This document shows, in pieces, positions 22,913-45,478 of a DNA stretch of 64,000 nt. Position numbers and translations under genes: made by a program. Below the pieces are notes generated by a model, which worked only from the letters and a program-made list of their open reading frames with translations, did not search any database and was not told the DNA's origin. This DNA comes from an uncultured bacterium (GTDB lineage Bacteria > DRYD01), in assembly GCA_937139605.1 (NCBI GenBank), contig CAKZQG010000039.1, positions 1-64,000 on the forward strand, given 5' to 3'. Positions within the stretch are counted from its first letter, which is position 1, and each line of letters opens with the position of its first letter.

Positions 22913-24247
22913 TTAAATTTTGAAAGTTTCTATTAAATCTATTTCTTCTTGGAGTTTATTAACTAAAAATGAATATATTACTTTCAGGTAATCTTTAAAT
23001 ATATCGGGGACAATCATGTTTTTGAGATTAGGGAAATTAAATGGGTAGAAAAATATAGCAATATCTTTTCTAGTATTTTTTTCTTTTAGCATTATAGGAA
23101 AATATGCACAAGGTACAAATCCAATATCTATTAATATATTATGATAGAAATAATTTTCAGCTTTAGAAACGACTTCTAAGTATCTTCCATCCAATTTATC
23201 AATAATAAATGGGATATTATAAAATAGATTATAAATTTTTTCTATATCGTTATCTACTTCTAACCCCATTATCGCGCAATGTTTATCAATATAATTAAAA
23301 TGTAAAAAAACAGAACCTATAGGAGTTTTTATTTTAAAATTCGGTTTATGAAATGGCATGAATTTAAATCTCAAGGTATTTAATTTCTCTTTATATTCTC
23401 TTTCTACGTTATCTACAATTATGTTTATATTATCTAAGATAGTTGGTTTAATATTTATTTTTTGGTTTAATATTTTCTGATATTTTTCTTCTAATGTTAG
23501 AATATCTTGGATATTTTTTTTAATATTTTTAATATTTTTTATGTTATAGTGGAGTAATCTATGTAAGTATTTTTGGAGTACTTGATATATTTCATTAACG
23601 AGGATATTCATTTTAGTTATTTTTTCTCTTTTAATTAGTCCTTTATGTGTTAGGTAGATAAATAGAGCGTGGTTTTCATAAGTTAGTACTCTCCTAACGT
23701 TGGGGAATATTCCAGCAGGAATGAAGTTATTTTTTAATAAAACTTTTTGGGGACTTATTGTTAAAGTTCTTGCTAAAGCGTATATTACTTCTGATTTAAT
23801 AATGGAATAATTAAATGCTAAATAAAATATTATTTCAAATAGTTTATTATTTCTGTATTTTTCTTTAACTACAGCAGCTAACGCTTTTGATAATGAATTC
23901 TTTTTATCAACTCTAAATAAAATTGAAGCACATACTTTATTTTCATTATCATATACTAACAACCATAAATTATCTTTATTTAATAGAATTTCAGTTAATA
24001 GTTCTTCATCAGTTACTTCAGGTAATGAGTAATTATATCCATAAATTTCTTTATATAGATTTTTTATATCATTTTTGTTATTTATATTGGCTTTTTTAAT
24101 TTTGAAATTAAGGATTAAAGTGCTTATATCAAATTCAAAAAATTCTTTTAGATCTCCAATTAGTATATCTTTATTAGAATTTAGTTCTTTAAAAATCTGA
24201 TTAATATGATTTATATTTTTATTATAAGTATTAGAACCTAAATTCAT
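22913..24247 (-). CDS. Double GNAT-fold putative acetyltransferase
   Basis: 444 residues appearing to contain two GNAT-like halves. The first (about 55-190) has NLWLLVYDNENKVCASILFRVD and a degenerate acetyl-CoA loop VVKEKYRNNKLFEIIF, then LLKNNFIPAGIFPNVRRV. The second (about 315-430) ends with LIDIGFVPCAYFPIMLKEK. A helical linker joins them. The overall look resembles beta-lysine acetyltransferase-like GNAT proteins, but the substrate is unknown and the second half may be non-catalytic. Adjacent (11 bases) to the ion channel gene; divergent from the arabinose cluster. Confidence 0.55.
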   Translation of the reverse strand: MNLGSNTYNKNINHINQIFKELNSNKDILIGDLKEFFEFDISTLILNFKIKKANINNKNDIKNLYKEIYGYNYSLPEVTDEELLTEILLNKDNLWLLVYDNENKVCASILFRVDKKNSLSKALAAVVKEKYRNNKLFEIIFYLAFNYSIIKSEVIYALARTLTISPQKVLLKNNFIPAGIFPNVRRVLTYENHALFIYLTHKGLIKREKITKMNILVNEIYQVLQKYLHRLLHYNIKNIKNIKKNIQDILTLEEKYQKILNQKINIKPTILDNINIIVDNVEREYKEKLNTLRFKFMPFHKPNFKIKTPIGSVFLHFNYIDKHCAIMGLEVDNDIEKIYNLFYNIPFIIDKLDGRYLEVVSKAENYFYHNILIDIGFVPCAYFPIMLKEKNTRKDIAIFFYPFNFPNLKNMIVPDIFKDYLKVIYSFLVNKLQEEIDLIETFKI

Positions 24248-24382: not shown

Positions 24383-25258
24383 ATGGGTTTTAGTGATTAT
24401 GTAAAACTATTAAGGATTCATCAATGGGTAAAAAATTTATTAATTTTTGCTCCATTTTTTTTCTCCTTTAATTACAAAACAGATATTCTTTTAAATTTAA
24501 TAATAGTTTTTTTTATTTTTAGTATTACTGCAAGTGCTATTTATGTAATAAATGATATTATAGATTTAGAGTACGATAAAAATCATCCCGATAAAAAAAA
24601 TAGGCCCTTACCTTCAAACAAAATCACTATAAATAATGCCGTTATTCTAATTTTTGTTTTATTATCTTTATCATTATCCATTTCTTTTTTAATTAATAAA
24701 TCTTTATTTTATCTAGTATTAATTTATATAATATTAAATCTAATATATAGCTTATTTATAAAGAAAATAATTATCTGGGATGTAACATTTTTAGCTTCAA
24801 ACTATATTATAAGGTTGTTAATAGGATCTATTCCATTTAATATAGAGTTATCTAATTGGATAATAATAAATACATTTTTATTAGCTATTTTAATTGGTTT
24901 TACTAAGAGAAGAGAAGATCTCATTTTATTTTATAAAGGTAAAAATACTAGAAAAAATATAGAAAATTATTCCCTAGAGTTAATTAATATATCTATAGCA
25001 ATAGTAGGCGGATTAGCTATAGTAGCTTACCTTATGTACACAACGAACTTAGAAATAATAAAAAAGCATGGGGAATATTTATATCTTACTTTTATTTTTG
25101 TTTTAGTAGGAGTAATAAGGTACCTTCAATTAGTATTTAATAAAGAAACAAGTGGTGATCCCGCAAAAATCTTTTTAAAAGATAATTTTTTAAAATTAAC
25201 TATTTTACTATGGTTAATTTCATTTTATGCAATCCATTACCTAAGTAACAAATTTTAG
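24383..25258 (+). CDS. UbiA-family polyprenyl-phosphate phosphoribosyltransferase (DPPR-synthase-like)
   Basis: Membrane prenyltransferase-fold enzyme of 291 residues with about eight helices. It carries the UbiA metal motif in the variant YVINDIIDLEYDKNHPDKKNRPLPS (about 55-79; NDxxDxxxD, HPxKxxRP), which is characteristic of decaprenyl-phosphate 5-phosphoribosyltransferase (mycobacterial Rv3806c) rather than quinone enzymes; the start YVKLLRIHQWVKNLLIFAPFFFS also matches. Predicted reaction: transfer of 5-phosphoribose from PRPP to polyprenyl phosphate. It heads a run with DprE1-like, DprE2-like and HAD-phosphatase genes that would complete polyprenyl-phosphoryl-D-arabinofuranose. Ribosome binding site AAAGGAG. 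Ends in TAG. Confidence 0.82.
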   Translation: MGFSDYVKLLRIHQWVKNLLIFAPFFFSFNYKTDILLNLIIVFFIFSITASAIYVINDIIDLEYDKNHPDKKNRPLPSNKITINNAVILIFVLLSLSLSISFLINKSLFYLVLIYIILNLIYSLFIKKIIIWDVTFLASNYIIRLLIGSIPFNIELSNWIIINTFLLAILIGFTKRREDLILFYKGKNTRKNIENYSLELINISIAIVGGLAIVAYLMYTTNLEIIKKHGEYLYLTFIFVLVGVIRYLQLVFNKETSGDPAKIFLKDNFLKLTILLWLISFYAIHYLSNKF

Positions 25259-25292
25259 AAATAATTAAAGCTTTAACATTATTGTCTATGTT

Positions 25293-25298
25293 TATTAT
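25293..25298 (+). promoter_or_regulatory. Possible -10 element for a leaderless start
   Basis: TATTAT lies five bases before the ATG at 25304, a spacing that would place transcription initiation at or next to the start codon. No Shine-Dalgarno is present. The -35 region is not recognisable. Confidence 0.35.
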
Positions 25299-25303
25299 AG
25301 TCT

Positions 25304-26596
25304 ATGTTTAAAGAAAAAGAAATCTCAACTTGGATATTAAATCCTAAAATAAAAAGTACAGTATATTATCCTGATAATTTCCTGACCATAAAAGAATTAA
25401 ATAACAATTTAAAAAATTTTTTAGCAATAGGTAAATTAAGGAGCTATTCAGATTCAATATACTCTACTGTTATTAAAACTACAAAATATAATTACATATT
25501 GGACTATAACAAAGAAGAAGGATATATTGAATGTACCTCAGGAATAACCTTAAAAGAAATAATAGATTTTGTAATAAAAGATAATTATTTTTTATTAATT
25601 ACTCCAGGTACAAAATATATAACCTTAGGTGGAGCAATATCAAATGATGTACATGGTAAAAACCATCATATCCATGGTTCATTTAATGAATCTATCATTA
25701 ATTTACAAGTTTTATTACCTAATAATGAAATAGTTACAATAAATGATAAAAATAATGAAATTTATAGAGCTATTGTAGGTGGAATTGGATTAATAGGAAT
25801 TATTTTAAAATCTAAAATAAAGTTATTAAAAATTCCTAGCCCATTTATATTACAAAGAAATACAAAAACCCATACCTTCTATCAATTAATTGATAATATC
25901 TATAAGTATAATAATTGTACTTACAGCGTAGTATGGTTGGATTTATTTAACTTTAACGGAAATAAATTAAATGCAATACTCCAAACTGGAGAATTTATAA
26001 ATCAAAACTATACAAATATAAATCATATTTTAAAAAGAATTAATAAAAAAATAACTATTCCCCATTTTTTAAGAATAGAAAATCTAATAGTTAAAATTTT
26101 TAATTATTTTTATTATTTATTTACTTTTGAAGAGAAAATAGTTGATTTTAATACTTTTTTTTATCCTTTAGATTTCATTTATAATTGGAATACTTTGTAT
26201 AAACCTACTGGATTTTTACAATATCAATTAATAGTTAATTCAGAAGAAGCTTTAGAAAAAATAATATACACAATATATAAATCTAACATAAAGCCATATT
26301 TATCTATTTTAAAATTACATAAAGAAGGTAATAATAATTTTTTGTCATTTCCCATAAAAGGTTTTAGTTTAGCTTTAGATTTTAAATTACAAGCAGGATT
26401 ATATGACTTATTGGATAAATTAGATAATATAGTTATAAAAAACAATGGTAGAATATATTTAGCTAAAGATAACAGGATGGATAAGGATAAATTTGAAAAA
26501 ATGTATTCAAAAGTAAATGAATTCAAAAAAATCAGAAAAGAATTAGGAGCTAATAAAAAATATATCTCTTTACAATCTATAAGATTAAGTCTATAA
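25304..26596 (+). CDS. DprE1-like FAD-dependent decaprenylphosphoryl-ribose oxidase
   Basis: FAD-linked oxidoreductase of 430 residues (VAO/FAD_binding_4 fold). Diagnostic segments: a FAD-binding LITPGTKYITLGGAISNDV followed by HGKNHHIHGSF, the DprE1 signature, then GGIGLIGIILKSKIKL. The C-terminus (IYLAKDNRMDKDKFEKMYSK) parallels mycobacterial DprE1, where the Lys-Asp pair lies near the active site. Predicted role: oxidation of the C2 hydroxyl of polyprenylphosphoryl-ribose to the 2-keto intermediate, the first half of the ribose-to-arabinose epimerisation. Followed 38 bases on by its reductase partner. Confidence 0.82.
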   Translation: MFKEKEISTWILNPKIKSTVYYPDNFLTIKELNNNLKNFLAIGKLRSYSDSIYSTVIKTTKYNYILDYNKEEGYIECTSGITLKEIIDFVIKDNYFLLITPGTKYITLGGAISNDVHGKNHHIHGSFNESIINLQVLLPNNEIVTINDKNNEIYRAIVGGIGLIGIILKSKIKLLKIPSPFILQRNTKTHTFYQLIDNIYKYNNCTYSVVWLDLFNFNGNKLNAILQTGEFINQNYTNINHILKRINKKITIPHFLRIENLIVKIFNYFYYLFTFEEKIVDFNTFFYPLDFIYNWNTLYKPTGFLQYQLIVNSEEALEKIIYTIYKSNIKPYLSILKLHKEGNNNFLSFPIKGFSLALDFKLQAGLYDLLDKLDNIVIKNNGRIYLAKDNRMDKDKFEKMYSKVNEFKKIRKELGANKKYISLQSIRLSL

Positions 26597-26634
26597 AAAC
26601 TATATAAAATAAAAATTATAAAATATTTGATTAT

Positions 26635-27375
26635 ATGGGTAATAAGTATTTATTAATAATAGGTGGTAATAGCGATATAGCTAAAGAATGTGCAATTGAG
26701 TTTGCTAAACACAATTTTAATCTAATATTAACAACAAGAAATAAAAACAAATTAGAAGAATTTTCTAAAGATCTTAAAAATCTCTATGATATAGACATAA
26801 TTATAGAAGAATTAGATATACTTGATTTTTCATATCATTCAGAATTCTGGAATAAAGTTAAAAATTATAACATAGAGGTAGTTTTAATATCTGTTGGGTA
26901 TTTAGGGAACCAAGAGTTAGCAGAACAAAATACCGAAGAAAGTTTAAAAATAATAAATACTAATTATACAGCTTTAGTAAATTTGATAAATATAATCTCA
27001 AATGACTTAAAGGAAAAAAGAAACAAAACCATCATAGGAATAAGCTCAGTAGCAGGTGATAGAGGCAGAAAAAGTAATTATATTTATGGAAGTGCAAAAG
27101 CAGGTTTCTCTTGCTACTTAGATGGATTAAGACACAAGCTATATAACTATAATATTCACGTTATTACAGTTAAACCAGGTCTAGTTTATACTAAAATGAC
27201 AAGTCATTTAAAACTTCCGAAATTTCTAACTACTACTCCTAACAAAGTTGCTAAAGATATCTATAAAGCATATTTAAAAAAAATAAATACATTATATACT
27301 CCTTTTTTCTGGAAAATAATAATTAATATTATAAAATTAATTCCTGAAAATATTTTTAAAAAAATTAATTTATGA
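26635..27375 (+). CDS. DprE2-like short-chain reductase
   Basis: 246-residue SDR with the NAD(P)-binding GGNSDIAKECAIEFAKH (about 10-26), catalytic Ser in GISSVAGDRGRKSN and YIYGSAKAGFSCYLDGL carrying the Tyr-x-x-x-Lys pair. The order and the sequence around SSVAGDRGRxSNYxYGSAKAG are those of decaprenylphosphoryl-2-keto-erythro-pentose reductase (DprE2), which completes conversion of ribose to arabinose on the lipid carrier. A basic hydrophobic C-terminal segment (PFFWKIIINIIKLIP) may attach it to the membrane. It ends in UGA. Confidence 0.82.
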   Translation: MGNKYLLIIGGNSDIAKECAIEFAKHNFNLILTTRNKNKLEEFSKDLKNLYDIDIIIEELDILDFSYHSEFWNKVKNYNIEVVLISVGYLGNQELAEQNTEESLKIINTNYTALVNLINIISNDLKEKRNKTIIGISSVAGDRGRKSNYIYGSAKAGFSCYLDGLRHKLYNYNIHVITVKPGLVYTKMTSHLKLPKFLTTTPNKVAKDIYKAYLKKINTLYTPFFWKIIINIIKLIPENIFKKINL

Positions 27376-27402
27376 TATATATACTAATTTATAATATAAA
27401 TT

Positions 27403-27408
27403 TATAAT
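27403..27408 (+). promoter_or_regulatory. Perfect -10 box just before a start codon
   Basis: TATAAT followed by ATACT and then ATG (27414). With no Shine-Dalgarno and only five bases between, this fits leaderless transcription of the phosphatase gene. Confidence 0.4.
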
Positions 27409-27413
27409 ATACT

Positions 27414-28004
27414 ATGGGTAAAAAAATAGTGTTTTTTGACTTTGATAATACAATAACTAAGAAAGATACTCTACCAATTTTTTTAAGATATTTATATCCT
27501 TTTCATATTTTTATTTTTAAATCTTTGTTATTTTTTCCTTTTTATGTACTATTTAAGCTAAAAATAATATCTAATGATTTAGCCAAAAAAATATTAACAA
27601 ATATTTTTTTTAGGAATTTAAGTTTAGAAATTTTTAATAAAAAAGTAGAAGAATTTAATTTAAAAATATTACCTAAGTTAATAAAAGATAAAGCAATAGA
27701 ATTAATAGATAGATATAATAAAGAGGGCTATATAATAGCAGTAGTTACAGGTAACTTTGAGGAAATATTAAAGCTATGGGCTAAAAACAATAAAGTATAT
27801 TTAATAGGTACAAAATTAGAAATAAGAAACAATAAATTTACGGGAAATTTAGCTACTGAAAACTGTACTTCTTACCAAAAAGTTATTAGAATCAAGGAAA
27901 TTTTTAATCTTGAAGAATTTGAGGAGATTATAGCATATGGTGATAGTGAATCTGATTTACCAATGCTTAATTTAGCTAAAAAAAAAGTTTATAAAAAACT
28001 CTAA
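27414..28004 (+). CDS. HAD-superfamily IB phosphatase (candidate polyprenyl-phosphoryl-phosphoribose phosphatase)
   Basis: 196 residues of the SerB-like HAD-IB subfamily: motif I FDFDNTITKKD with nucleophile Asp9 and acid Asp11, motif II AVVTGNFEE, and motif IV YGDSESDLPML. A hydrophobic patch around residues 20-50 (cap region, YPFHIFIFKSLLFFPFYV) suggests membrane contact. In the arabinose-lipid pathway a phosphatase must remove the 5-phosphate made by the UbiA-type enzyme; mycobacteria are thought to use another phosphatase fold, and a HAD enzyme in this position is a reasonable replacement. The last four bases overlap the convergent YfhO-type gene. Confidence 0.75.
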   Translation: MGKKIVFFDFDNTITKKDTLPIFLRYLYPFHIFIFKSLLFFPFYVLFKLKIISNDLAKKILTNIFFRNLSLEIFNKKVEEFNLKILPKLIKDKAIELIDRYNKEGYIIAVVTGNFEEILKLWAKNNKVYLIGTKLEIRNNKFTGNLATENCTSYQKVIRIKEIFNLEEFEEIIAYGDSESDLPMLNLAKKKVYKKL

Positions 28005-31000
28005 TTTTTATTTTTCTTATAATATTTTTCCTTAGCTAAAATAATAAACAATATTAGTAAATAGAAAGCGATAGTAACAAAAGGTAGAAAGAAAAATTTG
28101 GCATACCAAGGCTCATATCTTAAAATAACTTCATATTCTCCTTTTGGTACTATAACTCCCATAACCATTCCATTAACTTTTAAAACAGGTACTTCAGTAT
28201 TGTTTATGTAAGCTTTCCAGTATTTATAATATCCATGATTTATAACTATAAAGCTGTCTTTTAGAGTTTTAACTTTAAAACTTATTTCATTATATTTTTT
28301 AAATATATTTTCATCCATTATTTTAGCATTTCCAAAATTTAATTTATTTATATTTTCTTGATTTAAGTCTTTATAAATATTTTTATAGGTATAATTTAAA
28401 TTAGATAAATTAGAATATTTTTTAATTTTTGCTATTTCAGTTTCTTCTATTTTGGCTTCTTTTAAAATATTAAAATCTAATAAATATAGTTTTTCTCTAA
28501 AATCTAATAATCCTTTAACTGTGTTTATTTTATTAACACTTCTTATTATATTTACGACATTATTATTATAAAAAATAGAGGTTACTCTAAGTATTTTTTT
28601 CTGAGAATCTTTACTTTTAATTATTTTCCTCAAATATTTATGTTCGACAAATTGATAAGAATAGATATTATCATTTTTAAATGAAGGAGCTAAGAAAGGA
28701 GGATATAATACTAATTTAATATTTTTCAAATAAATTTTTTGATCTTCATTAGTTAGTAATTTTATTTTAAAATCAATAAGCTTTGAATTACTGATATCAA
28801 AAACATCAAAATAGCTAAAAGGTATCATAACCTTTATATATTCACTATCCTTTTCTTTTAAAGCTTTTAAGTAATTTATATTTACATTACCTAAATAAAC
28901 TTTAAATTTACTATTATCATAAAGTAATATATTTATATTTTTCTTTTTATCTAAAATAAGATTATTGTAATAATTATTCCAATAGTATCTAAATAAATCC
29001 AATTTAGGTAATTTAATATCTAAAATTAGTATTCCAATTATATCAGGGCTATTATAATTTTTTATTTTAAACTCTATTGGATTTTTACTATCAAAAAATA
29101 TTTCTTTTTGAGAATATAAAATATCATAAGTTTTTATTAATTTTTTATAAATATTATAATTTACATTATAAATATATTTAAAATTATTGTATAAATTATC
29201 TAAAACTTCATTATTTTTATATTCGTTTTTTGTACAAAATAAATCAATCCTTTTGATAGAATAAAAAGATAAGGGGAGATTAAAATAAAAAGGGAATAAA
29301 TTATTAAAAATTAATTCTTTCCTATCAAATGTAAGTATAGGGTCATAAGAATTAAAAAACATTTCCCTTGTAATAATAGAAATATAATTAACCATAGTTG
29401 TTCCGTACATAATTTGGTTATCATTGTAGTTTAATAATAAAACAGCATTATAGTTTTTGTTATTATTATTTTTAGTATCATTATAAATAAAATAAAAAAG
29501 CTTTTTAAATTCTTCATAATTATCTTCATTTTTAAACTTATAAATTCCATAAAAATAATATCTACCTTCTAATATAAAAGCTATTATAAAAAAGAGGATA
29601 AAAAACAAGAAAAATCTTTTAGCTACTTTATTATAAGCTATAAATAAAATTAAAAATATAATTAAAAAAAACAAAGGATAAAAAGTAGTAAATTTTAAAG
29701 AAATAATATATGGTATTAAATCAATAGAATTATAATACCAAAAATAAATTAGAGCTATAATAATAAATAAAACAAAAGATATTATAAAAAATTTTATAAA
29801 AATTAATATATTTTCTTTTATTTTTGATCTTATAAATAAAATTTCTTTAAGAAATACTCCAATAGAAGTAGCTAAAAGAAACTCAAATATAAACAGTTGT
29901 CTTACTGGAGATTTTATATCTAAATAAAAAGGAATCAAAGTAAAAATATAATGGAATATTGTATTTTTCCCCAAAGACAACAAAAGCGAAAGAAAACCAA
30001 TAATCATTACAAAACCAATTTTTATAAACAGTAATCTATTTTCTTTTATTCTATTATAATATTTATAAATAAAAAATAATAAAGATGGTATAGCTAAAAT
30101 TGATAAATAATGTACAATTTCAAAGTTAACTGTCTTTTCAAAAGTATAAAATAATAATTTATAATAATAATTATTATAAATAAATGGTAGAAAATAATTT
30201 ATTAATAATTCAAAACTCAAAGAACCGTAATTAAAAATAATACTTTTAATATACTCTCTATCAGTTAATTGAGAATATTCTTTAAATATCATATATTGCA
30301 ACCAAAAGATAGTTAAACTAATCCCTAAAGCTAAAAACCAATAAAATAATACTTTACCAAAATAATCCTTCTTTATAAACAATAATATTAAAATATATAT
30401 AAAAGAGTAGATAAAAGTATAAACTATAATATTGGGATGTCCTATTAAGACTATTATACCAAAAGATATTCCATAAACTAAAATATTTTTTAAAAAATCT
30501 TCTTGCCTAGTTATATTTTTATATATAATTAAATGTAAATTATACAAAGACAAAAAGAAATAAGGGATAGAATTATCAAAAGTTAAAAAATCAACATATC
30601 CTATACTTGAACCACTAAACGTATATAAAATACTTACAATAAAAGAAATTATCCTATTTTTTAATAAAAAATTAATATAATAATATATAACAATTTCTAA
30701 AATATATAGATGTAATAATATTCCCAAATTATATGCTAAAAAAGGATTAAATTTATATAAAGGTAAAAATATATAGTTTAAGGGATAAAATACACTACTT
30801 TGTAAAACTTCTATAAAAGGGTATCCTAAATGAGTATAATGCCACCATAATGGCAAATAACCATTACTTATAGTTTCATATAAAAAATACCTATAAGGGA
30901 AATAGGTATTTAATCCATCTACTGAATATATTAATACATTATTAAATATATAAGGATAAAAAAAAATAAAAGGAAATATTAGCATTAAAAAAATATAAAA

Positions 31001-31048
31001 ATAATTACTTCTCAAAAGGACAAAATTCTCTTTTCTTTTGAAAAACAT
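28001..31048 (-). CDS. YfhO-family large membrane protein (putative GT-C glycosyltransferase)
   Basis: 1015 residues: twelve or more transmembrane helices over the first ~480, a long extracytoplasmic domain, and a final pair of helices. The YfhO signature is at the end: INHGYYKYWKAYINNTEVPV, then VPKGEYEVILRYEP before the last helix; the start has SVDGLNTYFPYRYF and GYLPLWWHYTHLGYPF as in this family. YfhO proteins act as GT-C-like enzymes or helpers adding sugars from polyprenyl phosphate donors outside the membrane. It neighbours two prepilins and converges with the arabinose-lipid genes, so transfer of that sugar to pilin or glycan is plausible. Ends in TAG. Confidence 0.75.
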   Translation of the reverse strand: MFFKRKENFVLLRSNYFYIFLMLIFPFIFFYPYIFNNVLIYSVDGLNTYFPYRYFLYETISNGYLPLWWHYTHLGYPFIEVLQSSVFYPLNYIFLPLYKFNPFLAYNLGILLHLYILEIVIYYYINFLLKNRIISFIVSILYTFSGSSIGYVDFLTFDNSIPYFFLSLYNLHLIIYKNITRQEDFLKNILVYGISFGIIVLIGHPNIIVYTFIYSFIYILILLFIKKDYFGKVLFYWFLALGISLTIFWLQYMIFKEYSQLTDREYIKSIIFNYGSLSFELLINYFLPFIYNNYYYKLLFYTFEKTVNFEIVHYLSILAIPSLLFFIYKYYNRIKENRLLFIKIGFVMIIGFLSLLLSLGKNTIFHYIFTLIPFYLDIKSPVRQLFIFEFLLATSIGVFLKEILFIRSKIKENILIFIKFFIISFVLFIIIALIYFWYYNSIDLIPYIISLKFTTFYPLFFLIIFLILFIAYNKVAKRFFLFFILFFIIAFILEGRYYFYGIYKFKNEDNYEEFKKLFYFIYNDTKNNNNKNYNAVLLLNYNDNQIMYGTTMVNYISIITREMFFNSYDPILTFDRKELIFNNLFPFYFNLPLSFYSIKRIDLFCTKNEYKNNEVLDNLYNNFKYIYNVNYNIYKKLIKTYDILYSQKEIFFDSKNPIEFKIKNYNSPDIIGILILDIKLPKLDLFRYYWNNYYNNLILDKKKNINILLYDNSKFKVYLGNVNINYLKALKEKDSEYIKVMIPFSYFDVFDISNSKLIDFKIKLLTNEDQKIYLKNIKLVLYPPFLAPSFKNDNIYSYQFVEHKYLRKIIKSKDSQKKILRVTSIFYNNNVVNIIRSVNKINTVKGLLDFREKLYLLDFNILKEAKIEETEIAKIKKYSNLSNLNYTYKNIYKDLNQENINKLNFGNAKIMDENIFKKYNEISFKVKTLKDSFIVINHGYYKYWKAYINNTEVPVLKVNGMVMGVIVPKGEYEVILRYEPWYAKFFFLPFVTIAFYLLILFIILAKEKYYKKNKN

Positions 31049-31062
31049 TAGTAACTAAAAAA

Positions 31063-31494
31063 TTAATATTGAATTACTACTCCTTCTTGAGGAGAAAAAA
31101 ATACTTTACTAACAGTTCCCCTATTATTTTTGTGCTTAATTGAAGTATTATAAGTAGGACAGTAAATAAAGTATGATGTTCCATTATTTGATGTTTTATA
31201 TTCATAAAATTCTTTAGCAACTGGACATTTATAATCTTTATCTATATATACATTTAAAGGGTTACCAGTTAAGGTTATTACAAAGTCATTAGCAGGGTAT
31301 TTTCCTTCATAATCATTAGAATACATTTCCACAACAGAAGCTATATTTTTTAAAATAGCTTGGCAGGCAGTTAATTTAGCAGCATTTCTTGCATTAACAA
31401 AATTAGGGATTAAAACTACTGCTAATATTGAAATAATTGCTATTACTATCATTAATTCTAACAAAGTAAATCCCCTTTTTTTATTAATTTTCAT
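31063..31494 (-). CDS. Type IV prepilin / pseudopilin
   Basis: 143 residues. Leader MKINKKRG is followed by FTLLELMIVIAIISILAVVLIPNF, the classic prepilin cleavage site and stem with Glu at +5. The globular part keeps ACQAILKNIASVVEMYSNDYEGKYP, as in the second pilin, and a Cys pair in YKCP..FIYCP that could form the D-loop disulfide. Ribosome binding site AGAGGTGG. It precedes YfhO by 14 bases, so they are probably cotranscribed, linking pilin and membrane glycosyltransferase-like gene. The globular domain contains several Ser and Thr residues. Confidence 0.9.
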   Translation of the reverse strand: MKINKKRGFTLLELMIVIAIISILAVVLIPNFVNARNAAKLTACQAILKNIASVVEMYSNDYEGKYPANDFVITLTGNPLNVYIDKDYKCPVAKEFYEYKTSNNGTSYFIYCPTYNTSIKHKNNRGTVSKVFFSPQEGVVIQY

Positions 31495-31541
31495 AAGAAA
31501 CCACCTCTATTGAAATAATAAGGAATAAATAAATAAAAAAG

Positions 31542-31615
31542 CAGGGCGGAGAGGATTTGAACCCCCGACCAATGGATTTGGAGTCCACCGCTCTACCAAA
31601 CTGAGCTACCGCCCT
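31542..31615 (-). tRNA. tRNA-Trp (CCA)
   Basis: 74-base cloverleaf on the - strand: acceptor AGGGCGG/CCGCCCT, discriminator G, D arm GCTC..GAGC, anticodon loop CTCCAAA with anticodon CCA, and T arm GGGGG..CTCTC region around TTCAAAT. Only UGG is read by this anticodon without wobble to UGA, consistent with UGA being a stop. It lies between two prepilin genes. Confidence 0.96.
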
Positions 31616-31659
31616 TCATATAAAACCAAACAAATACTTTTTTAAAAATTATACTGATA

Positions 31660-32142
31660 CTATTGGAAAGCTCTTGTATTATTATCAATAATTCCTTGTT
31701 GTGAATCTAAATATGGGCCTCCTTTTTTACCTCCTGCACTCGTATGAGCTGGTGTATTACCTATTGCTTTTGCTGCAGGACAATATATCCAATACATTAC
31801 TGATTGACTTTGTTGAAATACGTAACTACCTTTTTGAACAGGACATTTTGTTTTCTTTCCAATATAATTTGTAGCAAGTGTATTAATAGCATCAGTAGTA
31901 CTACCTGGATCCGGAAGAGTTGCTGTAGTTCCACCTGTACCACCAGGATATAACCCATCATAGTCATTAGAGTATGTTTCCACTGCAGTTGATATATTTT
32001 TTAGGTTAGATTTACAAGCGGTTAGCCTTGATGCTTCTCTTGCTCTCATAAAGTTAGGAACTAATACTGCAGCTAATATTGCAATTATTGCTATAACGAT
32101 CATCAGCTCAATTAAGGTAAAACCCTTTCTCTTTTTTCTCAT
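31660..32142 (-). CDS. Type IV major-type prepilin with Thr/Gly-rich loop
   Basis: About 160 residues. Leader MRKKRKG, then FTLIELMIVIAIIAILAAVLVPNFMRAREA, a standard prepilin stem. I choose the second ATG (ending at 32142), nine bases from AGGAGG, over the ATG six bases upstream, which would be too close. After ACKSNLKNISTAVETYSNDYDGLYPG comes a Thr/Gly/Pro-rich loop (GGTGGTTATLPDPGSTTD) and a Cys pair (KTKCPVQ, WIYCPAA). The Thr/Ser-rich loop is a plausible O-glycosylation region. Lies immediately downstream of the AftB-like glycosyltransferase gene. Ends in TAG. Confidence 0.9.
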   Translation of the reverse strand: MRKKRKGFTLIELMIVIAIIAILAAVLVPNFMRAREASRLTACKSNLKNISTAVETYSNDYDGLYPGGTGGTTATLPDPGSTTDAINTLATNYIGKKTKCPVQKGSYVFQQSQSVMYWIYCPAAKAIGNTPAHTSAGGKKGGPYLDSQQGIIDNNTRAFQ

Positions 32143-32245
32143 ATACATTCACCTCCTTTTCCTCATTATTTTTATACCCAATTTTTTCCAAAATGTACCT
32201 TTTTTAGATAACATTTCACACTCAATTTTTATTGACTTTTGTCAA

Positions 32246-33949
32246 TTATTTTTTATTTCTACAAAACTTCTTGTAGGCTTGATAAGTATCTTTTGGAATT
32301 CTAATTTTTGTAAATTTATAAGAATAAACAATATTTAATAGAAACTTTTTTAGAGTTAATTTTCCATGAATAGAATCCAATAAATCTCTTAAAACTCCAC
32401 ATTCCATAGCTTTTTTAGCATATAACTCTTTTTCATTAGTTATTTGACCTATCCTAGCATTGATCCACTCTATGGATAAGGTTTTTTCATGACCAGGCCT
32501 TCCTCTTTTATCCACTTTAAAACGAGCCCCAATAGGATCAGCTATACACCAAAGATCAAAAATATAATACTCACTTCCCAATAAGAATCCGGAAATCCCT
32601 ATATTCGACAAAGCAACATACTTATCTACCTTTATTTTGTTTGTTATTTCATAATCAGTATATCTTTGTTTCAAATTAGCAGCTTGCAGATAAAGAAGAG
32701 AACCGCTATAATCTTCTAAAGTAACAGGATTTTTTTTATGAGATAATCTAATATAAAACTCTCTTTCATTAGCTATACCATATTCATTGATCCCGTTATA
32801 TGAAACTCTTAAATAATTAATGCAAATAAAACACCAGATTAACAATAAAAGTAGCAAGATTTTTTTTAAAATACTTTCATTAATAATGATAGGTGGTAAT
32901 ACAACAAAGAATGCAAAAACAGAAGGTAATAAAAATCTAGCATGCATAAAATCCCCACCAATCAAGATAACATACAAAGCATATAATAAACTTGATATCA
33001 AAAAGGAAATAACAAAAAATATTAATTTATAATCAATTTCATTAATTTCAAGAGTTTTAAATTTTTCATAGATAAAATAAAAAATTAAAATAAATCCTAA
33101 AATTATAGGGAAATACAAAAAATAAGTATTAAAAAAATCAAGAAAATAAATTATACCTCTATCTATGTAAAAACTAAAAGCACTTTTAGCTATAGCAGTA
33201 TTAGGTACAATACTTGCAAAATACCCCATCCTAAAGATCTGATAAACTAAAGGCAAAAAAACAAATAAAAATAATTTAAATAAAATTAACTTAATATTTA
33301 TATACATTTTTTCATATTTAAACAAAATAAATAAATAAAGCAAAATAAAATTAATAAAAAAAATCCCTAAATCAGGTCTTATTAAAACTCCCAAACTTAC
33401 AATAATTGGTAATATATTATCCTTGTAAAGATTAGAAATATTATATATAAAGATCCAAAAAACAAAACTTAAGTAAAAAAATACTAATCCAGTTTCTAAA
33501 CCTGATGTAACAAAATCCCAAAAAACAGAAATACTAACTATTAAATAGCTACCTATAATAAAGAAATAATTTTTATCATATAGCTCTTTTTTGTATAAAA
33601 TTTCCAAATATCTTTTCCAAGCTAAATTAATAAATAAAATACTTAAAGAAGAAAATAAGATTCCTAAAAAAACTGAGCTATACTCAATACTTTGAGTTAT
33701 ATAATAAAAAATAGTTAATAGAAAAAGCCACAAAGGATGAGTATAAACTTCCACTCTTTCTCCAACATTAAAAACAGGACCATATCCATTTAAAAGATTA
33801 TCAGCAACTCTAAAAGTAATAAAAGCATCATCACAAACCCAACGATTAATATACCCTTTATACATTACAATAAAAACAGGAATTAATATAATAATCCACT
33901 GAAAAATCCATTTTTTGATTTCATTAAATTTATTGTAATTATAATTCAC
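32246..33949 (-). CDS. AftB-like GT-C arabinofuranosyltransferase
   Basis: 567 residues with about nine to ten N-terminal membrane helices and a soluble C-terminal region. The first loop has CDDAFITFRVADNLLNGYGPVFN followed by GERVEVYTHPLWLFLLT, which closely resembles the mycobacterial terminal arabinofuranosyltransferase AftB and related GT-C enzymes; the DD pair is the expected catalytic acid region. GLETGLVFFYLS and the late ISGFLLGSEYYIFDLWCIAD segment, where such enzymes carry conserved DxxG-like motifs, agree. The donor should be polyprenyl-phosphoryl-arabinofuranose, the product predicted for genes at 24383-28004. GTG start with GGGAG upstream. The acceptor could be the neighbouring pilin. 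Confidence 0.75.
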   Translation of the reverse strand: MNYNYNKFNEIKKWIFQWIIILIPVFIVMYKGYINRWVCDDAFITFRVADNLLNGYGPVFNVGERVEVYTHPLWLFLLTIFYYITQSIEYSSVFLGILFSSLSILFINLAWKRYLEILYKKELYDKNYFFIIGSYLIVSISVFWDFVTSGLETGLVFFYLSFVFWIFIYNISNLYKDNILPIIVSLGVLIRPDLGIFFINFILLYLFILFKYEKMYINIKLILFKLFLFVFLPLVYQIFRMGYFASIVPNTAIAKSAFSFYIDRGIIYFLDFFNTYFLYFPIILGFILIFYFIYEKFKTLEINEIDYKLIFFVISFLISSLLYALYVILIGGDFMHARFLLPSVFAFFVVLPPIIINESILKKILLLLLLIWCFICINYLRVSYNGINEYGIANEREFYIRLSHKKNPVTLEDYSGSLLYLQAANLKQRYTDYEITNKIKVDKYVALSNIGISGFLLGSEYYIFDLWCIADPIGARFKVDKRGRPGHEKTLSIEWINARIGQITNEKELYAKKAMECGVLRDLLDSIHGKLTLKKFLLNIVYSYKFTKIRIPKDTYQAYKKFCRNKK

Positions 33950-34007: not shown

Positions 34008-35918
34008 TTAATAATCTTTTCTAATAATTTTATTATAAACGGATTTAAAAAAGAAGAAAATAAGTAATCCGATTGTTAAGGCCCAAAAAGTTCTTAATAA
34101 TCCAAATAATACAGGGGTATGTACATGTAAAAAAGTATCTACAATATCACTAAAAGTTATAAATGAAATTAAAAATAAAAAAGGAATCATCTTAAATTCA
34201 TAATCTTTCAACTTATTTGTATATTTTAGATAAACAAAATATAATAAAAATAATAGAGCAGGGTTACCTATTAGAAACTCTTTAAACCTTGGCCGAGCTA
34301 TTAAAATATTTTCCAAAATATTCCTTAATTCAGTTTCAAACGGAAAAGTAAATCCCATATTCCCACTCCTTAATAAATATACCCCAATAACCCCAAAAAT
34401 AAATAATATAACAACTATATCTATAACCCTAACTCTCTTTATTAAAAATAACCTTATTTCCTTATAATTAAATACTAAAAAGATACCTAAAAATATAGGC
34501 AAAATAAGCAACAATTTTATTCCACTAACTTTATTAATAGCTAAATATAAATTTTGATTAAATAAAACAGCCTGAACAAAAATCCCCAAAATAATAACCC
34601 ATAAAATTAATTTAAAATAAAATAATACTATATTACTACTAAACTCTCTTAAAAATATTTCTCTATAAATAAAAACTACAATTAAAAAGGAAACAAAAAA
34701 TAAAACCAAAACCTCAAAAATAAACTCTACTTTAAATACAAAACTAAGAATAAACAAAATAAATAAAAACAAATTAAACATAAAAAATAAACTCCCATTC
34801 AAATTATACCCATTTTCAACTAAAAAATTATAATAATAACTAGCAGAAGCAAACGAATAAACAATAAATAAAATTAAAGCAACAAGAGAAACTATTTTTA
34901 TAAAAGTTAAATATTTATTTATTTCTTCTAAATTATAGTCTTTATTTATAGTATTAGATAGCTTTAATATATTATCATGAGTTTTTTTTAAAATATTAAT
35001 ATTATCATAGAAATTAAGGTTATCAGAGAATCTAAAAAGAATCAATCTACAATTCCTTTCATTAAAAGCTAAATCAATAGAATTCAATATTGCATTAGCA
35101 CTTTTATCTTTAACAACATAGGTACTAAACAATTTTATTTTATTATTAAAAGGTAAATCATAAGCAAACTCTATAGAACCCCTTTGAATATTCTTAGAAC
35201 TATAATATTCCACAAAACCGAAAATTAAATTCTTATTGATAAATAATTCTTTTAATTTTTTAATATAAAAAGGATAACCAGCTACAAAAGGTCCATTAAA
35301 GACTATTATATCCCCAGATTTTATATAATTTAGTTTTTCAAGATCATAAAAATATGAACTAACCCGCCAAATTATTTTTTTTCCTAAACTTCTATATTTC
35401 TCTACTTCTTTTAAAGGGAACACTTCCAAATTAGCTACATAATCATAATCTACATCTACTTTTATAACATTCCCTACTTTGCTAACTTTATTAGGAAATA
35501 TATTAGCTAAGATACTATAAACAATATTTAAATAATCTAAATCATTGGTATATATAAAAGTTTTATTAATATCAGGATTAAGGTTAGTTTTAAAAGAATT
35601 AGAATCTAAAGTAGTTATCCAAAACTTAGGATTAATTTTTAACTCATTTAGAGAAACTACATCAACTATATTATAATTTTTTAGTTCTTTTAAGCTAAGC
35701 GTTTTAAAAGAAATAGCATTTACATTATTTAAAATTTTTTTTTCAAAATAATCTTTATAATTATAAACATAATTAGAAGAAAAATTAAGATAATCTAAAT
35801 AATCAACAGCTAAATACTTAGGATTATAAGTTTTATCTAATAATATTCTAAGAATTAAAAATAAAAAAGATACAAAAAAAACAATCCATCTCATTATTAA
35901 TAAAAAATTCTTTATCAA
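34008..35918 (-). CDS. DUF5693-like large membrane protein
   Basis: 636 residues. One N-terminal helix is followed by an extracytoplasmic domain (about 30-330) with strands such as KIIWRVSSYFYD, GDIIVFNGPFVAGYP, FGFVEYYSSKNIQRGS and CRLILFRFSDN. About eight to nine membrane helices make up the rest, including the late ARPRFKEFLIGNPALLFLLYF. The layout matches the DUF5693 family seen in Firmicutes and related candidate phyla near surface-polysaccharide genes; function unknown. TTG start preceded by AAAGGG. It is the first gene after a strong terminator, so it may begin the transcription unit running through AftB-like, pilins and YfhO. Confidence 0.55.
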   Translation of the reverse strand: MIKNFLLIMRWIVFFVSFLFLILRILLDKTYNPKYLAVDYLDYLNFSSNYVYNYKDYFEKKILNNVNAISFKTLSLKELKNYNIVDVVSLNELKINPKFWITTLDSNSFKTNLNPDINKTFIYTNDLDYLNIVYSILANIFPNKVSKVGNVIKVDVDYDYVANLEVFPLKEVEKYRSLGKKIIWRVSSYFYDLEKLNYIKSGDIIVFNGPFVAGYPFYIKKLKELFINKNLIFGFVEYYSSKNIQRGSIEFAYDLPFNNKIKLFSTYVVKDKSANAILNSIDLAFNERNCRLILFRFSDNLNFYDNINILKKTHDNILKLSNTINKDYNLEEINKYLTFIKIVSLVALILFIVYSFASASYYYNFLVENGYNLNGSLFFMFNLFLFILFILSFVFKVEFIFEVLVLFFVSFLIVVFIYREIFLREFSSNIVLFYFKLILWVIILGIFVQAVLFNQNLYLAINKVSGIKLLLILPIFLGIFLVFNYKEIRLFLIKRVRVIDIVVILFIFGVIGVYLLRSGNMGFTFPFETELRNILENILIARPRFKEFLIGNPALLFLLYFVYLKYTNKLKDYEFKMIPFLFLISFITFSDIVDTFLHVHTPVLFGLLRTFWALTIGLLIFFFFKSVYNKIIRKDY

Positions 35919-35942
35919 ATAAAAATTCCCTTTAAATTTAAG

Positions 35943-35976
35943 GGAAAAAAAATAAAAGGGGCTTAGAAAACCCCTT
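35943..35976 (-). terminator. Rho-independent terminator
   Basis: On the - strand, AAGGGG pairs with CCCCTT across a nine-base loop and is followed by TTATTTTTTTT. It sits about 45 bases after the stop of the small Cys-rich gene and ends that transcript before the DUF5693-like gene. Confidence 0.85.
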
Positions 35977-36019
35977 AATTTGATTATTTTTTATTACAAT
36001 ATAATTATAATTTTTAAAA

Positions 36020-36139
36020 TTATTTACCGCATTTACATTCTTTTCCACTTTCACATCCGCAATTACAACCACTTCCACAATTACAATTTTTCTCCTTCTT
36101 ATTTGATTTACTTTCTTTCATTTGCTTATCTTCTTTCAT
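36020..36139 (-). CDS. 39-residue Cys-rich metallothionein-like protein
   Basis: Short gene that starts at an ATG overlapping the final UGA of the thioredoxin-fold gene (ATGA, 36136-36139) and ends TAA at 36020. The product has a Lys/Glu/Ser-rich N-terminal half and a C-terminal half NCNCGSGCNCGCESGKECKCGK with seven Cys in a CxCxxxCxCxCxxxxxCxC pattern, like metal-binding metallothionein or Fe/Cu/Zn-chelating tails. The GAAGGAGAAA inside and AAAAAG upstream give no clear ribosome binding site of its own, so coupled translation is likely. An intrinsic terminator follows. Probable role: binding soft metals or supporting the redox partner upstream. Confidence 0.65.
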   Translation of the reverse strand: MKEDKQMKESKSNKKEKNCNCGSGCNCGCESGKECKCGK

Positions 36140-36789
36140 TTCTTTTTATTCATATCCATAGAGCATTTATCTTTAGCTTTAGTTAGGTTACAATGATCAC
36201 ACCAACCTACTAATTGTTTTAAATGTCCTTGATCTAATTTATTTGTTGAACCCATTATAGTATTATTAACTATGTAATAAACAGTAGGATATTCTTTAAC
36301 CCCTAAGGAAGAAACTAAATTAGCAGTAGGATACAAAGCCATACTTAATTTATTTTGTTTAACTAAATTAGTTAGCTCTGTTTTTTCAGTTTCTTTCCCA
36401 TTAACAAAAACAACAAATTGAACATTATTATATCCTTTTTTACTAAGCCATTCTTGGAAATTCTTTATTTGAACATAGTCTCTAACAGTTTCTTTATTTA
36501 AGAAAAATACTAATGCTTCATTAGATAAACTTCAGTTATAATTTTTATTATCAACCAAGTTTAAAAAACTTTGATTAAACCAATTAGAAACATTTAAATT
36601 AGCAGCAGCTACTACAGTAGATTCATTAGAAGTATTCTTAGTTTGACAACATTGACAGTTTTCTGTTTTATTAGAAGAGTGCTTAGATTCCTTATCATGA
36701 GCCATAACACTTATGTTAATAAAAGCAAATATAAATAATATAGCAATGATTATAATACTTAAGATTCTATAGTCTTTTATTTTTTTCAT
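36136..36789 (-). CDS. Thioredoxin-fold membrane-anchored protein with internal in-frame UGA
   Basis: One reading frame of 218 codons interrupted by UGA at codon 86 (36532-36534). Residues 1-30 form a membrane anchor; a linker has a CQCC cluster (45-48). After the UGA comes a thioredoxin/TlpA-like fold: EALVFFLNKETVRDYV, VQFVVFVNG, and LGVKEYPTVYYIV containing the expected cis-proline. The usual CxxC after the first strand is missing, but a C-terminal tail carries GWCDHC (197-200). Options are a nonsense mutation, a sequencing error, or recoding (Sec or read-through). Strong AAAAGGAGGTG upstream. A Trp at this place would read naturally (NYNWSLSNE). Confidence 0.6.
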
Positions 36790-36985
36790 TAACTAACACC
36801 TCCTTTTTAGATTTATAAATCATTTTTCAACTATCTCCTTCTGTAGCAATTCATCTCCATCTTTTTATTATTATCACCTCCTTTTTGGTTTTTATGTTTA
36901 TTTTTTTATTTTTGTATTATTTACACTTCCATTTTTAATATTTTAGATTTTTTTTATTTCTCCTTTTTTGTTTTATGTTTATTTT

Positions 36986-42478: not shown

Positions 42479-43309
42479 TTAAAACCAAAGAATACCTATA
42501 CCACAATTTTCTTGATTATAGTCTTTTATTATTTCTTGATATTTTTTATAGCCATATTTATTTTTGTTATTTTTTAATTCTTTCCAGAAAACGGAAGTCC
42601 CATCAGAATAATTAGGGGCTATATCGTGAAAAGCGATTACAGAGTTATTATTTATAAATTTAGAATAAAGTTCAAAGTCTTTTTTTACTGCTTCGTAGCT
42701 ATGATCCCCATCTATAAATATAAAATCTATTTTCCTTCCTTGTAATAATTTTTCTAAATAAGATACTGTATTTTTATCTTGTGAGCTAGCTCTTATTAGA
42801 TATAACTGCTGATTATCTTTTTTAAAACAATTAAATAACTGGATAATCAGATAATCATATTTATGATATTTTTTATTTCCCCAGAAAGGAAGATCTATAC
42901 TTATAATAGTAGAATTATCAGCTGCTAATTTAGTAAAGCAAAACAAAGTCCCACCTCTATAACTTCCTATCTCCAAAATAATTTTTGGATTAATAGATCT
43001 AAATATTTTTAATAATTCCAAAAATTCTTCTTTAATCTGTATAGGAGTAATTAAGGAATCTTCAAAATTTTTAACAAATTGCCATAAATTATCTAAATCA
43101 TTGAACTCTACATTACTTACATAATCTAGGAAATTTTTATCATTTAATAATATCATTAATTTTTTTATATAATTTTCATACTCATTATTTATTTTAGAAG
43201 AATAAATAAAACTATATAAATTTACTTTAATTTTATTAATAAATTTAGTGATTCCAAATTCTCTTAAAATAAAAACACCTTTTCTAATCTTTTTCAATAA
43301 ATTACCCAT
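42479..43309 (-). CDS. Class I SAM-dependent methyltransferase (Methyltransf_24 type)
   Basis: 276 residues. The SAM-binding motif is ILEIGSYRGGTLFCF (about 130-144), followed by STIISIDLPF, and IDFIFIDGDHSYEAVKKDFE with the acidic pair usual in this group of small-molecule or sugar methyltransferases. VIAFHDIAPNYSDGTSVFW is also typical. An N-terminal helical region precedes the domain. At the downstream end of a surface-glycan gene cluster it probably methylates a sugar in the polymer. No Shine-Dalgarno. Confidence 0.75.
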   Translation of the reverse strand: MGNLLKKIRKGVFILREFGITKFINKIKVNLYSFIYSSKINNEYENYIKKLMILLNDKNFLDYVSNVEFNDLDNLWQFVKNFEDSLITPIQIKEEFLELLKIFRSINPKIILEIGSYRGGTLFCFTKLAADNSTIISIDLPFWGNKKYHKYDYLIIQLFNCFKKDNQQLYLIRASSQDKNTVSYLEKLLQGRKIDFIFIDGDHSYEAVKKDFELYSKFINNNSVIAFHDIAPNYSDGTSVFWKELKNNKNKYGYKKYQEIIKDYNQENCGIGILWF

Positions 43310-43359
43310 AAAAACAAACTTAACACACTTTTGTTTTAACTAATTTATTTTCAATGAAT

Positions 43360-44553
43360 TTATTTTCTAGTTAAAATACTTTCATACAATTTTTTAAATT
43401 GGGAAGAAATATTTTTATATGAATAATTTTCCTTAACAAAATCGGATATCCTTTTTCTATCAAAGTTTTGATAATTTTTACACATAAAGTAAAACGCATT
43501 AACTAACTGATCGATATTATTGTTATCAATAAGTATTCCATATTGGGGTTTAAGATATTCTTCAGGTCCTCCAGACTTGGTAGCAATAACAGGTAATCCA
43601 CATAACATAGCTTCTAAAGTAGCAACCGAAAAAGTCTCTACTTTACTGAACATAACAAAAAAATCATAACTCGGCATTAATTCTTTTAGTTTCTTATTAT
43701 CTATTGCTCCTTTAAAAAATACATTTTTATTTAACAAATCCAATTCATTAGCTAATTTTATTAATTTTTCTTTATCTTTTCCATCTCCATAAATATCAAG
43801 TATAATCTTATTATTTTTAAATTCTTCCTTATAAGTATTTAAAAATATCTTAAATCCATTAAGTAAATTAGAGATATTTTTAGTTTTATCAATCAAATTA
43901 GATACTGAAATAATCTTTATTTCATATTTGAATTTAATACTATTATAATTATTTATTTTTATATTTTCATTTTCTTCAAAAACTACATTAGGGATAATGT
44001 AAAATTTATTTTTAAATCCGATTTTTTGCATAGCATTTTTTAAAGATTCACTAACACATATTATCCCTTCAGAAAATAAAGAAAACCATTTTATGAATAA
44101 AAGCAAAATTTTTTTAATTATATCAAGTTTGTCTATTTTATTAACTATTCTTGGATAAAAAGTTGAATGTTCTAATATTATAAACTTTATTTTCTTAAAA
44201 AATTTAAAATACAGAGCTATAAATAGCATAAAAGAAGAGGTAATATTAACTTGAATCAAATCTATTTTTTTGTAATTTTTAGATAAAATAAAAATTCCAA
44301 TTAATATAGATATAAGGTAAAAAAATACATCAAAAATAGGGTGTGTTTTTTTATAGTAAATTATAATAGTGTCAATATTTTCATCTAAGAAGTTATCTAT
44401 TTTAAAAAGTTTTTTAATTTTTTTAGAAGGTGCTATATGAAAGGAAATCACATTAGCAAAAAGAGAAACAGCTTTAGCGTGTTTTCTAATAAAAATAGCA
44501 GAATTAGGATTATCTAAATTTGGATACCACTTGTTTAAAAACAAAATTAACAT
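43360..44553 (-). CDS. Family 4 glycosyltransferase
   Basis: 397-residue GT-B enzyme. N-terminal acceptor domain opens NKWYPNLDNPNSAIFIRKHA; the C-terminal donor domain has LDIYGDGKDKEKL, VFFKGAIDNKKLKELM and the ExxxxxxxE element ETFSVATLEAMLCGLPVIAT followed by GGPEEYL. Retaining enzyme using a nucleotide sugar to extend a surface glycan. Ribosome binding site AAAGGAA; one base separates it from the stop of the epimerase gene upstream. Confidence 0.88.
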   Translation of the reverse strand: MLILFLNKWYPNLDNPNSAIFIRKHAKAVSLFANVISFHIAPSKKIKKLFKIDNFLDENIDTIIIYYKKTHPIFDVFFYLISILIGIFILSKNYKKIDLIQVNITSSFMLFIALYFKFFKKIKFIILEHSTFYPRIVNKIDKLDIIKKILLLFIKWFSLFSEGIICVSESLKNAMQKIGFKNKFYIIPNVVFEENENIKINNYNSIKFKYEIKIISVSNLIDKTKNISNLLNGFKIFLNTYKEEFKNNKIILDIYGDGKDKEKLIKLANELDLLNKNVFFKGAIDNKKLKELMPSYDFFVMFSKVETFSVATLEAMLCGLPVIATKSGGPEEYLKPQYGILIDNNNIDQLVNAFYFMCKNYQNFDRKRISDFVKENYSYKNISSQFKKLYESILTRK

Positions 44554-44554
44554 A

Positions 44555-45478
44555 TTATAATTCCTTTATTAACCTTACTACATAATTATCAACAGATTCC
44601 CAAAAATTAGGAAAAGGAACTTTAAGAATTTTCGTTAATTCTAATAACTTATCAGTGGAAGGGTAAAATCCAATATTAATTTCACTATTTACATAATCAT
44701 AATCCAAACCATACTTAGCTTTAAAATAATTTAAGATATCCTTAACCATAATATTATCTTTATAAGATAAATTAATTATCAAATTTTGGTTGAAATTCCA
44801 GTATAAAATGACTTTATATACAATTTCACAAATAAATTCTACCGGCAAAGGGTTAAGATAAGACTCAGGATATATATATATATTCATTTTTGATTTATTT
44901 TTAATATGAAAGGCTAAAGAAGGAATAAATCTATTTTTTTTTTCGTAAATTCCAAAAGCATAAGATAATCTAAAAATAATGCAATTTATACCAAATACTT
45001 CACAAAAAGATAATAATATTTTTTCAGTGATAAATTTCGATAAGCCATAATTAGTTGATGGAATAATATTATTTTCTTCAGTGACCAATCCTTGAGCTCC
45101 ATGATAAACAGCAGTAGAAGAAAAATAAATGATTCTAATTCCATTTGTTTTATTATAATATTTCAATTTCTGGAAAATTTTTTTTAAATATTGAGAATCC
45201 AATAGAAAAAAAGAATTAAAATTATTAAACGCTTTAATACTAGAATTACCAGCAGTTACAATTAAATAATCTATATTAATATCATTTTTTATAAAATCAT
45301 TAAAAGAGATTTCATTAGGTAATTGTAGCTTATTATTAAAAAAAACAGGGATTACAAAAAAATTATTTCTAGCAAAGAGAAAATTAAAAATATTTCTACC
45401 TATAAAACCTGATGAACCTATTACAATAATATTATATTTTTTATTATTTTTATTATTGGTTTTTATTGTATTTTCCAT
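44555..45478 (-). CDS. NAD-dependent sugar epimerase/dehydratase
   Basis: 307-residue extended SDR: IIVIGSSGFIGRNIFNF is the NAD loop, IIYFSSTAVYHGAQG the Ser strand, and TNYGLSKFITEKIL holds the Tyr-x-x-x-Lys pair. It acts on a nucleotide sugar (UDP-, GDP- or dTDP-linked) to make a surface-glycan precursor; the exact reaction is not readable. Its start overlaps the end of the next epimerase gene upstream by 16 bases, showing a compact operon. Confidence 0.8.
   Translation of the reverse strand: MENTIKTNNKNNKKYNIIVIGSSGFIGRNIFNFLFARNNFFVIPVFFNNKLQLPNEISFNDFIKNDINIDYLIVTAGNSSIKAFNNFNSFFLLDSQYLKKIFQKLKYYNKTNGIRIIYFSSTAVYHGAQGLVTEENNIIPSTNYGLSKFITEKILLSFCEVFGINCIIFRLSYAFGIYEKKNRFIPSLAFHIKNKSKMNIYIYPESYLNPLPVEFICEIVYKVILYWNFNQNLIINLSYKDNIMVKDILNYFKAKYGLDYDYVNSEINIGFYPSTDKLLELTKILKVPFPNFWESVDNYVVRLIKEL

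Follow-up and report, generated by a model that had tools for sequence, protein, structure and literature searches.

We analysed a 64,000-nucleotide stretch of DNA (the window; positions 1 to 64,000 of contig CAKZQG010000039.1, assembly GCA_937139605.1) from an uncultured bacterium, in which four genes resembling those for lipid-linked D-arabinofuranose synthesis face two type IV prepilin genes, a gene for a large membrane protein, and a gene for a glycosyltransferase of the AftB type. Sequence similarity assigns the genome to the lineage Calescibacteriota: the window's LptG-like neighbour shows a 61% match to Candidatus Calescibacterium sp. SKYB25, and in the NCBI taxonomy Calescibacterium is placed in the little-known candidate phylum Calescibacteriota. 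This lineage lives in hot springs. Two secretins encoded in the genome are consistent with a diderm cell envelope. For comparison we used a genome of the same genus (G001), whose stretch with the corresponding locus is referred to as L097. The features of the locus are as follows.

22913-24247, minus strand: GNAT-like protein, syntenic flank beyond the donor cassette (78% identical in L097; labelled by eye, no Pfam match)
24383-25258, plus strand: PPPRS, an Rv3806c-type UbiA-fold phosphoribosyltransferase (NF008977, PDB 8j8j, phosphoribosyl pyrophosphate (PRPP)- and Mg-binding residues)
25304-26596, plus strand: DprE1-like FAD oxidase (NF053785, PDB 4aut, motifs)
26635-27375, plus strand: DprE2-like reductase of the SDR family (NF005489, NF053786, motifs)
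27414-28004, plus strand: HAD-IB phosphatase (TIGR01490, motifs), which also comes fourth in L290, a locus of another family with an identical gene order
28001-31048, minus strand: YfhO-like large membrane protein of predicted GT-C type, ancestral pilin core (about 12 predicted transmembrane segments)
31063-31494, minus strand: prepilin 2 (N_methyl 9e-10; ortholog in L097, 62%)
31541-31615, minus strand: tRNA-Trp between both pilin genes (ARAGORN)
31660-32148, minus strand: prepilin 1, candidate acceptor with a Thr-rich loop (N_methyl 4e-11; loop comparison)
32149-32256, minus strand: conserved pilin 1 leader (about 81% DNA identity with the sister locus, starting at the AftB stop)
32246-33949, minus strand: AftB-like GT-C protein, putative arabinofuranosyltransferase (NF041481, PDB 9dlf, catalytic and donor-binding residues)
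34008-35918, minus strand: DUF5693 protein, syntenic flank common to the congener (PF18949 2.5e-63; 58% in L097)

All open reading frames named in the original prediction were open in the window at the coordinates assigned to them; that of prepilin 1, listed there as 31660-32142, extends to 32148. The labels UbiA-type phosphoribosyltransferase, DprE1, DprE2, HAD, and AftB-like proved right at the family level, as judged by profile and PDB matches and by active-site residues, and comparison with Rv3806c, DprE1, and DprE2 gave matches to those families (8j8j, 4aut, and NF053786), the enzymes being covered over their full length. PPPRS matched the decaprenyl-phosphate phosphoribosyltransferase model NF008977 with an E-value of 5e-66 and 223 bits (curated cut-off 234), and its closest solved structure is that of Rv3806c (8j8j, E 1.4e-30). 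Mapping of the Rv3806c reference residues (PMC10994848) via the HMMER alignment revealed 11 of the 12 PRPP- and Mg-binding residues to be identical, the exception being Q135, which is replaced by Asn. The DprE1-like protein reached 287 bits with NF053785 (E 4e-85), which is below the equivalog cut-off of 500, and matched the solved DprE1 structure 4aut over its full length (E 1e-51). The alignment showed that the motifs HGKNHH, GFLQYQ, and AKDxR are kept, and that the Cys of the GWNxCVDF motif is replaced by Ala357. This Cys is the benzothiazinone target. The DprE2-like protein scored above the cut-off of the SDR model NF005489 (301 bits) and below that of the DprE2 model NF053786 (E 1.2e-48); it carries the nucleotide-binding motif GGNSDI and the active-site motif YIYGSAK (YxxxK). 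In the HAD-IB protein, which exceeded the cut-off of TIGR01490 with 103 bits, the DxDxT and GDxxxD motifs read DFDNT and GDSESD. It is proposed as the putative 5'-phosphate phosphatase acting on polyprenyl-phosphate-ribose-5-phosphate. The active-site residues support function of the enzymes, with the phosphatase activity of the HAD-IB protein being putative, and the locus very probably encodes a donor pathway for polyprenyl-phosphate-D-arabinofuranose, the rare sugar donor that serves the tuberculosis cell wall.

The transferase candidate matched NF041481 with an E-value of 1.6e-54, and AftB (9dlf), the terminal beta-1,2 arabinofuranosyltransferase, was its sole PDB match at E<=1 (E 8.5e-52). 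Its score of 185 bits comes nowhere near the 1050 bits that the mycobacterial equivalog requires, and we therefore refer to it as AftB-like rather than as AftB. Nevertheless, all six AftB reference residues (PMC12041299), D62 (catalytic, DD motif), T91, E172, R221, T274, and R372, are kept as D41, T70, E152, R191, T251, and R338, respectively.

Comparison with the congener revealed where these genes sit relative to an older arrangement. The order in G001 is LptG-like, tRNA-Trp, DUF5693, pilin 1, pilin 2, YfhO, GNAT, and UppP. The window has the same order of protein genes plus the AftB-like gene between DUF5693 and pilin 1, and plus the block HAD-DprE2-DprE1-PPPRS, on the opposite strand, between YfhO and GNAT. 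In G001 the GNAT-like gene directly follows YfhO, and the locus has neither an AftB-like gene upstream of the pilins nor the four donor genes. On one side, homology to G001 resumes at the AftB stop (window position 32256), and on the other it does so roughly 70 bp upstream of the GNAT gene (window position 24317). Transferase and donor genes hence differ jointly, by gain or loss, at two sites, one on each side of a single conserved pilin core. The other AftB-like and DprE1 loci examined have no comparable pilin neighbours. Neither DprE1 nor PPPRS (E<=1e-50) nor an AftB-like protein was found in the genomes of G001 and five other relatives (G002 to G006), which are 71-90% complete. Because all of these were negative, gain in the lineage of the window is the simpler explanation; because of their incompleteness, loss is a possible one. 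The base composition of the cassette matches that of the genome (low G+C, 0.21-0.24), and the direct repeats around it are AT-rich and chance-like. The tRNA-Trp gene has moved inside the locus: in the congener (L097 4631-4706) it lies upstream of DUF5693, after the LptG-like gene, and in the window it separates the pilins.

Faulty assembly or binning, the genome being derived from a metagenome, might have produced the difference between the two species, given that the window's genome is 88.5% complete in 45 contigs and that the congener is also a draft. This is very improbable, since a single contig runs through the cassette with synteny unbroken to either side, since the cassette shares the low G+C of the genome, and since the locus of the congener is continuous in one contig.

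As predicted originally, two prepilins face the donor genes, both identified by N_methyl matches and the signature GFTL[IL]E. The loop of prepilin 1 between the YP and YI.K motifs contains 8 Thr in 26 residues versus 0-4 in the loops of related pilins, and candidate residues in mature numbering are T62, T65, T66, T68, S74, T75, T76, T81, and T84. The composition of this loop is no more than suggestive of an acceptor site. The structure model of prepilin 1 was too poor for use (mean pLDDT 42), as was that of the YfhO-like protein (mean pLDDT 38). The latter protein has a large soluble region ahead of its last predicted transmembrane segment. Its label is weak: PF09586 matched one of four relatives at 2.4e-6, and the window protein had no Pfam match at E<=10. 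YfhO was considered as a part of the arabinose cassette and dropped, as it adjoins the pilins in the cassette-free relatives G001 and G002, the latter also having YfhO, pilin 1, and pilin 2 together. Thus, the YfhO-like gene does stand beside the pilins as originally described, but it belongs to the ancestral pilin core.

Our interpretation, which we consider probable, is that the locus represents an accessory D-arabinofuranosylation system for the type IV pilin. Lipid-linked D-arabinofuranose would be synthesised inside the cell and turned outward by a flippase presumably encoded elsewhere, and the AftB-like GT-C enzyme, whose gene lies directly upstream of the pilin gene, would transfer the sugar. 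That D-arabinofuranose is delivered either to the pilin itself or to a pilin glycan appears reasonably likely. The acceptor may be the Thr-rich loop of prepilin 1; alternatively, the sugar may cap a glycan deposited by the YfhO-like protein encoded nearby. The original prediction had left the choice between arabinofuranosylated pili and a surface arabinan. We infer that the pilin is the favoured acceptor, because the two-site gain or loss flanks the pilin core and because the Thr-rich loop was found only in the species with the cassette. By analogy with P. (Pseudomonas) paraeruginosa, in which TfpW adds D-arabinofuranose polymers to pilin and protects from phages (PMC11841053, PMC12369383), masking of the pili from phages would be a likely benefit. 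Genes resembling CRISPR-Cas genes by eye at L281 1-5128 (contig C26 of the same genome) give a hint of phage pressure.

Within this interpretation, capping and direct transfer to Thr are equally plausible, because G001 and G002, which lack the cassette, have the YfhO-like gene next to the tandem pilins and because YfhO of B. (Bacillus) subtilis is required for the extracytoplasmic transfer of N-acetylglucosamine to lipoteichoic acid (PMC5836110). The YfhO-like protein would then be an ancestral pilin glycosyltransferase beginning the glycan, and the arabinose cassette a later capping module, in accordance with the capping function of mycobacterial AftB (PMC12041299). In contrast, the family membership of the window's YfhO-like protein is weak, its donor and acceptor are putative, and its model is unusable. 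Taken as a whole, an ancestral pilin glycan made by a YfhO-family protein and capped with beta-D-arabinofuranose by an AftB-family enzyme, with the cassette gained at two sites, is a tentative proposal.

A breadth survey covered 385 other genomes; its statistics are not corrected for phylogeny. AftB-like proteins were found in 77, PPPRS in 128, and DprE1 in 34 of these. PPPRS was present in 69 of the 77 genomes with an AftB-like protein versus 59 of the 308 without (Fisher p 3e-31, odds ratio 36), while co-occurrence of AftB-like proteins with DprE1 was weak (11 genomes, p 0.07). Full-length DprE1 was absent from 62 of the 69 genomes with both AftB-like protein and PPPRS. Since they mostly occur without DprE1, most AftB-like proteins elsewhere probably use a non-arabinose lipid-linked pentofuranose, possibly ribose. 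DprE1-type modules were found in many families. L290 (genome G340) contains PPPRS-DprE1-DprE2-HAD in identical order at 35-39% identity, and the roughly 8 kb to either side of this module hold neither a pilin gene nor an AftB-like one. Other donor modules are PPPRS-DprE1-DprE2 in L128 and PPPRS-[GtrA-like]-DprE1-DprE2 in L219; PPPRS of L293 has a HAD-like N-terminal extension (by eye). Single pilin-like genes are located some kilobases away in L217 and L302. A search with the AftB-like protein alone in a contig collection gave no match. Plasmid and phage searches gave only distant matches to the AftB-like and DprE2 proteins; plasmids of Rhizobium and others carry DprE1-SDR pairs, often accompanied by GtrA. 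Another genome has, at L285 4009-13108, the genes for PPPRS, DprE1, and DprE2 interspersed with those for three large GT-C-looking membrane proteins.

In a further rival explanation the donor is not arabinose. The module may deliver ribofuranose or another pentofuranose, with the DprE1- and DprE2-like proteins acting on a different prenyl-linked sugar; the frequent lack of full-length DprE1 beside AftB-like protein and PPPRS, and thus the probable use of ribose by many relatives, would agree with this, as would the DprE1 score below the equivalog cut-off and the Ala in place of the conserved mycobacterial Cys. We regard it as improbable, since DprE1 and DprE2 accompany PPPRS at this locus and recur as a module in several further genomes, and the DprE1-like protein matches the solved structure over its full length with conserved motifs.

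The main rival explanation retains the donor but assumes that the AftB-like enzyme adds D-arabinofuranose to a periplasmic polysaccharide (O-antigen- or capsule-like) and that its proximity to the pilins is a coincidence. Polysaccharides are the acceptors of mycobacterial AftB and of the GT136 enzyme (PMC12041299, PMC11127046), the window contains a glycan cluster at 42479-50798 (several glycosyltransferases, nucleoside diphosphate-sugar epimerases, and a methyltransferase, by eye), and the AftB-like genes examined elsewhere are not beside pilins. However, the two separate insertions or losses exactly flank the pilin-YfhO core and not the glycan cluster, and the Thr-rich pilin loop occurs only where the cassette is present, which leaves this explanation possible but rather unlikely.

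Several observations weigh against pilin arabinosylation. The tandem pilin core was found at none of the other AftB-like, PPPRS, or DprE1 loci examined, the argument from the Thr-rich loop compares one species with a few, and the scores of the AftB-like and DprE1-like proteins are below the curated equivalog cut-offs. Direct O-linkage to pilin would be without precedent in the AftB family, because mycobacterial AftB acts on a sugar acceptor and not on protein (PMC12041299). The pathway, described originally as complete, is so for donor synthesis and transfer, but a search for a specific, dedicated flippase in the genome found none: PF04138 (GtrA) had no match in the genome, no MATE flippase adjoins the cassette, and the one MATE protein of the genome is encoded on another contig, with one also present in the cassette-free congener.

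The locus can be compared with three known systems. It shares with group IV pilin arabinosylation of P. paraeruginosa (TfpW and PSPA7_6245-6251) a GT-C gene beside the pilin gene, D-arabinofuranose donor genes including a ubiA gene (PMC12369383), and probable type IV pilin decoration. In contrast, the P. paraeruginosa donor genes are located in a separate genomic island, RGP80 (PMC12369383), whereas here they lie around the pilin gene, the transferase belongs to the AftB family, and the core includes a YfhO-like protein and a second pilin. With the mycobacterial decaprenylphosphoryl-arabinose pathway it has PPPRS, DprE1, DprE2, and AftB with catalytic and donor-binding residues in common. It differs in that a HAD phosphatase takes the place of Rv3807c, to which it is unrelated, that an Rv3789/GtrA flippase is missing, that no arabinosyltransferase besides the AftB-like one was seen at the locus, and that the candidate acceptor is a pilin. 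The three-component pentofuranose systems of Citrobacter youngae (GT136; PMC11127046) likewise combine PPPRS, a HAD phosphatase, and a GT-C enzyme for extracytoplasmic transfer of the sugar from a lipid-linked pentofuranose. They have a single SDR epimerase or none where DprE1 and DprE2 are found here, and our locus has no adjacent MATE flippase, an AftB-type GT-C enzyme, and a pilin neighbourhood rather than an O-antigen cluster.

Pili that carry D-arabinofuranose are, to our knowledge, known only in a single Pseudomonas lineage. If a second and distant case, here with a transferase of the AftB type, is true, it would mean that the lipid-linked arabinofuranose donor module has been repeatedly recruited to pili, probably under phage pressure, and the congeneric genomes with and without the cassette provide a natural comparison. 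Should the capping model hold, we know of no earlier AftB-type enzyme that has a protein-linked glycan as its substrate, and of no earlier system of this kind in Calescibacteriota. Our data also bear on the role of AftB-like proteins outside mycobacteria, which track PPPRS across bacteria, mostly without DprE1. The original prediction held the arrangement to be undescribed in such a lineage, and a limited literature search found no description either, but polyprenyl-phosphate-pentofuranose modules outside Actinobacteria have already been recognised as widespread (PMC11127046).

Promoter and terminator scans at the locus gave no signals above those of shuffled sequences. Next to the DUF5693 gene, the thioredoxin-like coding stretch 35919-36985 (GWCDHC motif) is interrupted by an in-frame TGA, after which a Cys-rich tail of metal-binding-like character continues in a different frame; it is either a decaying gene or a recoded one. 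Near-identical IDETNKR / NNKIEKVQEFLLNK repeats occur many times over in the protein encoded at 10483-11376 of the window, a long coiled coil.

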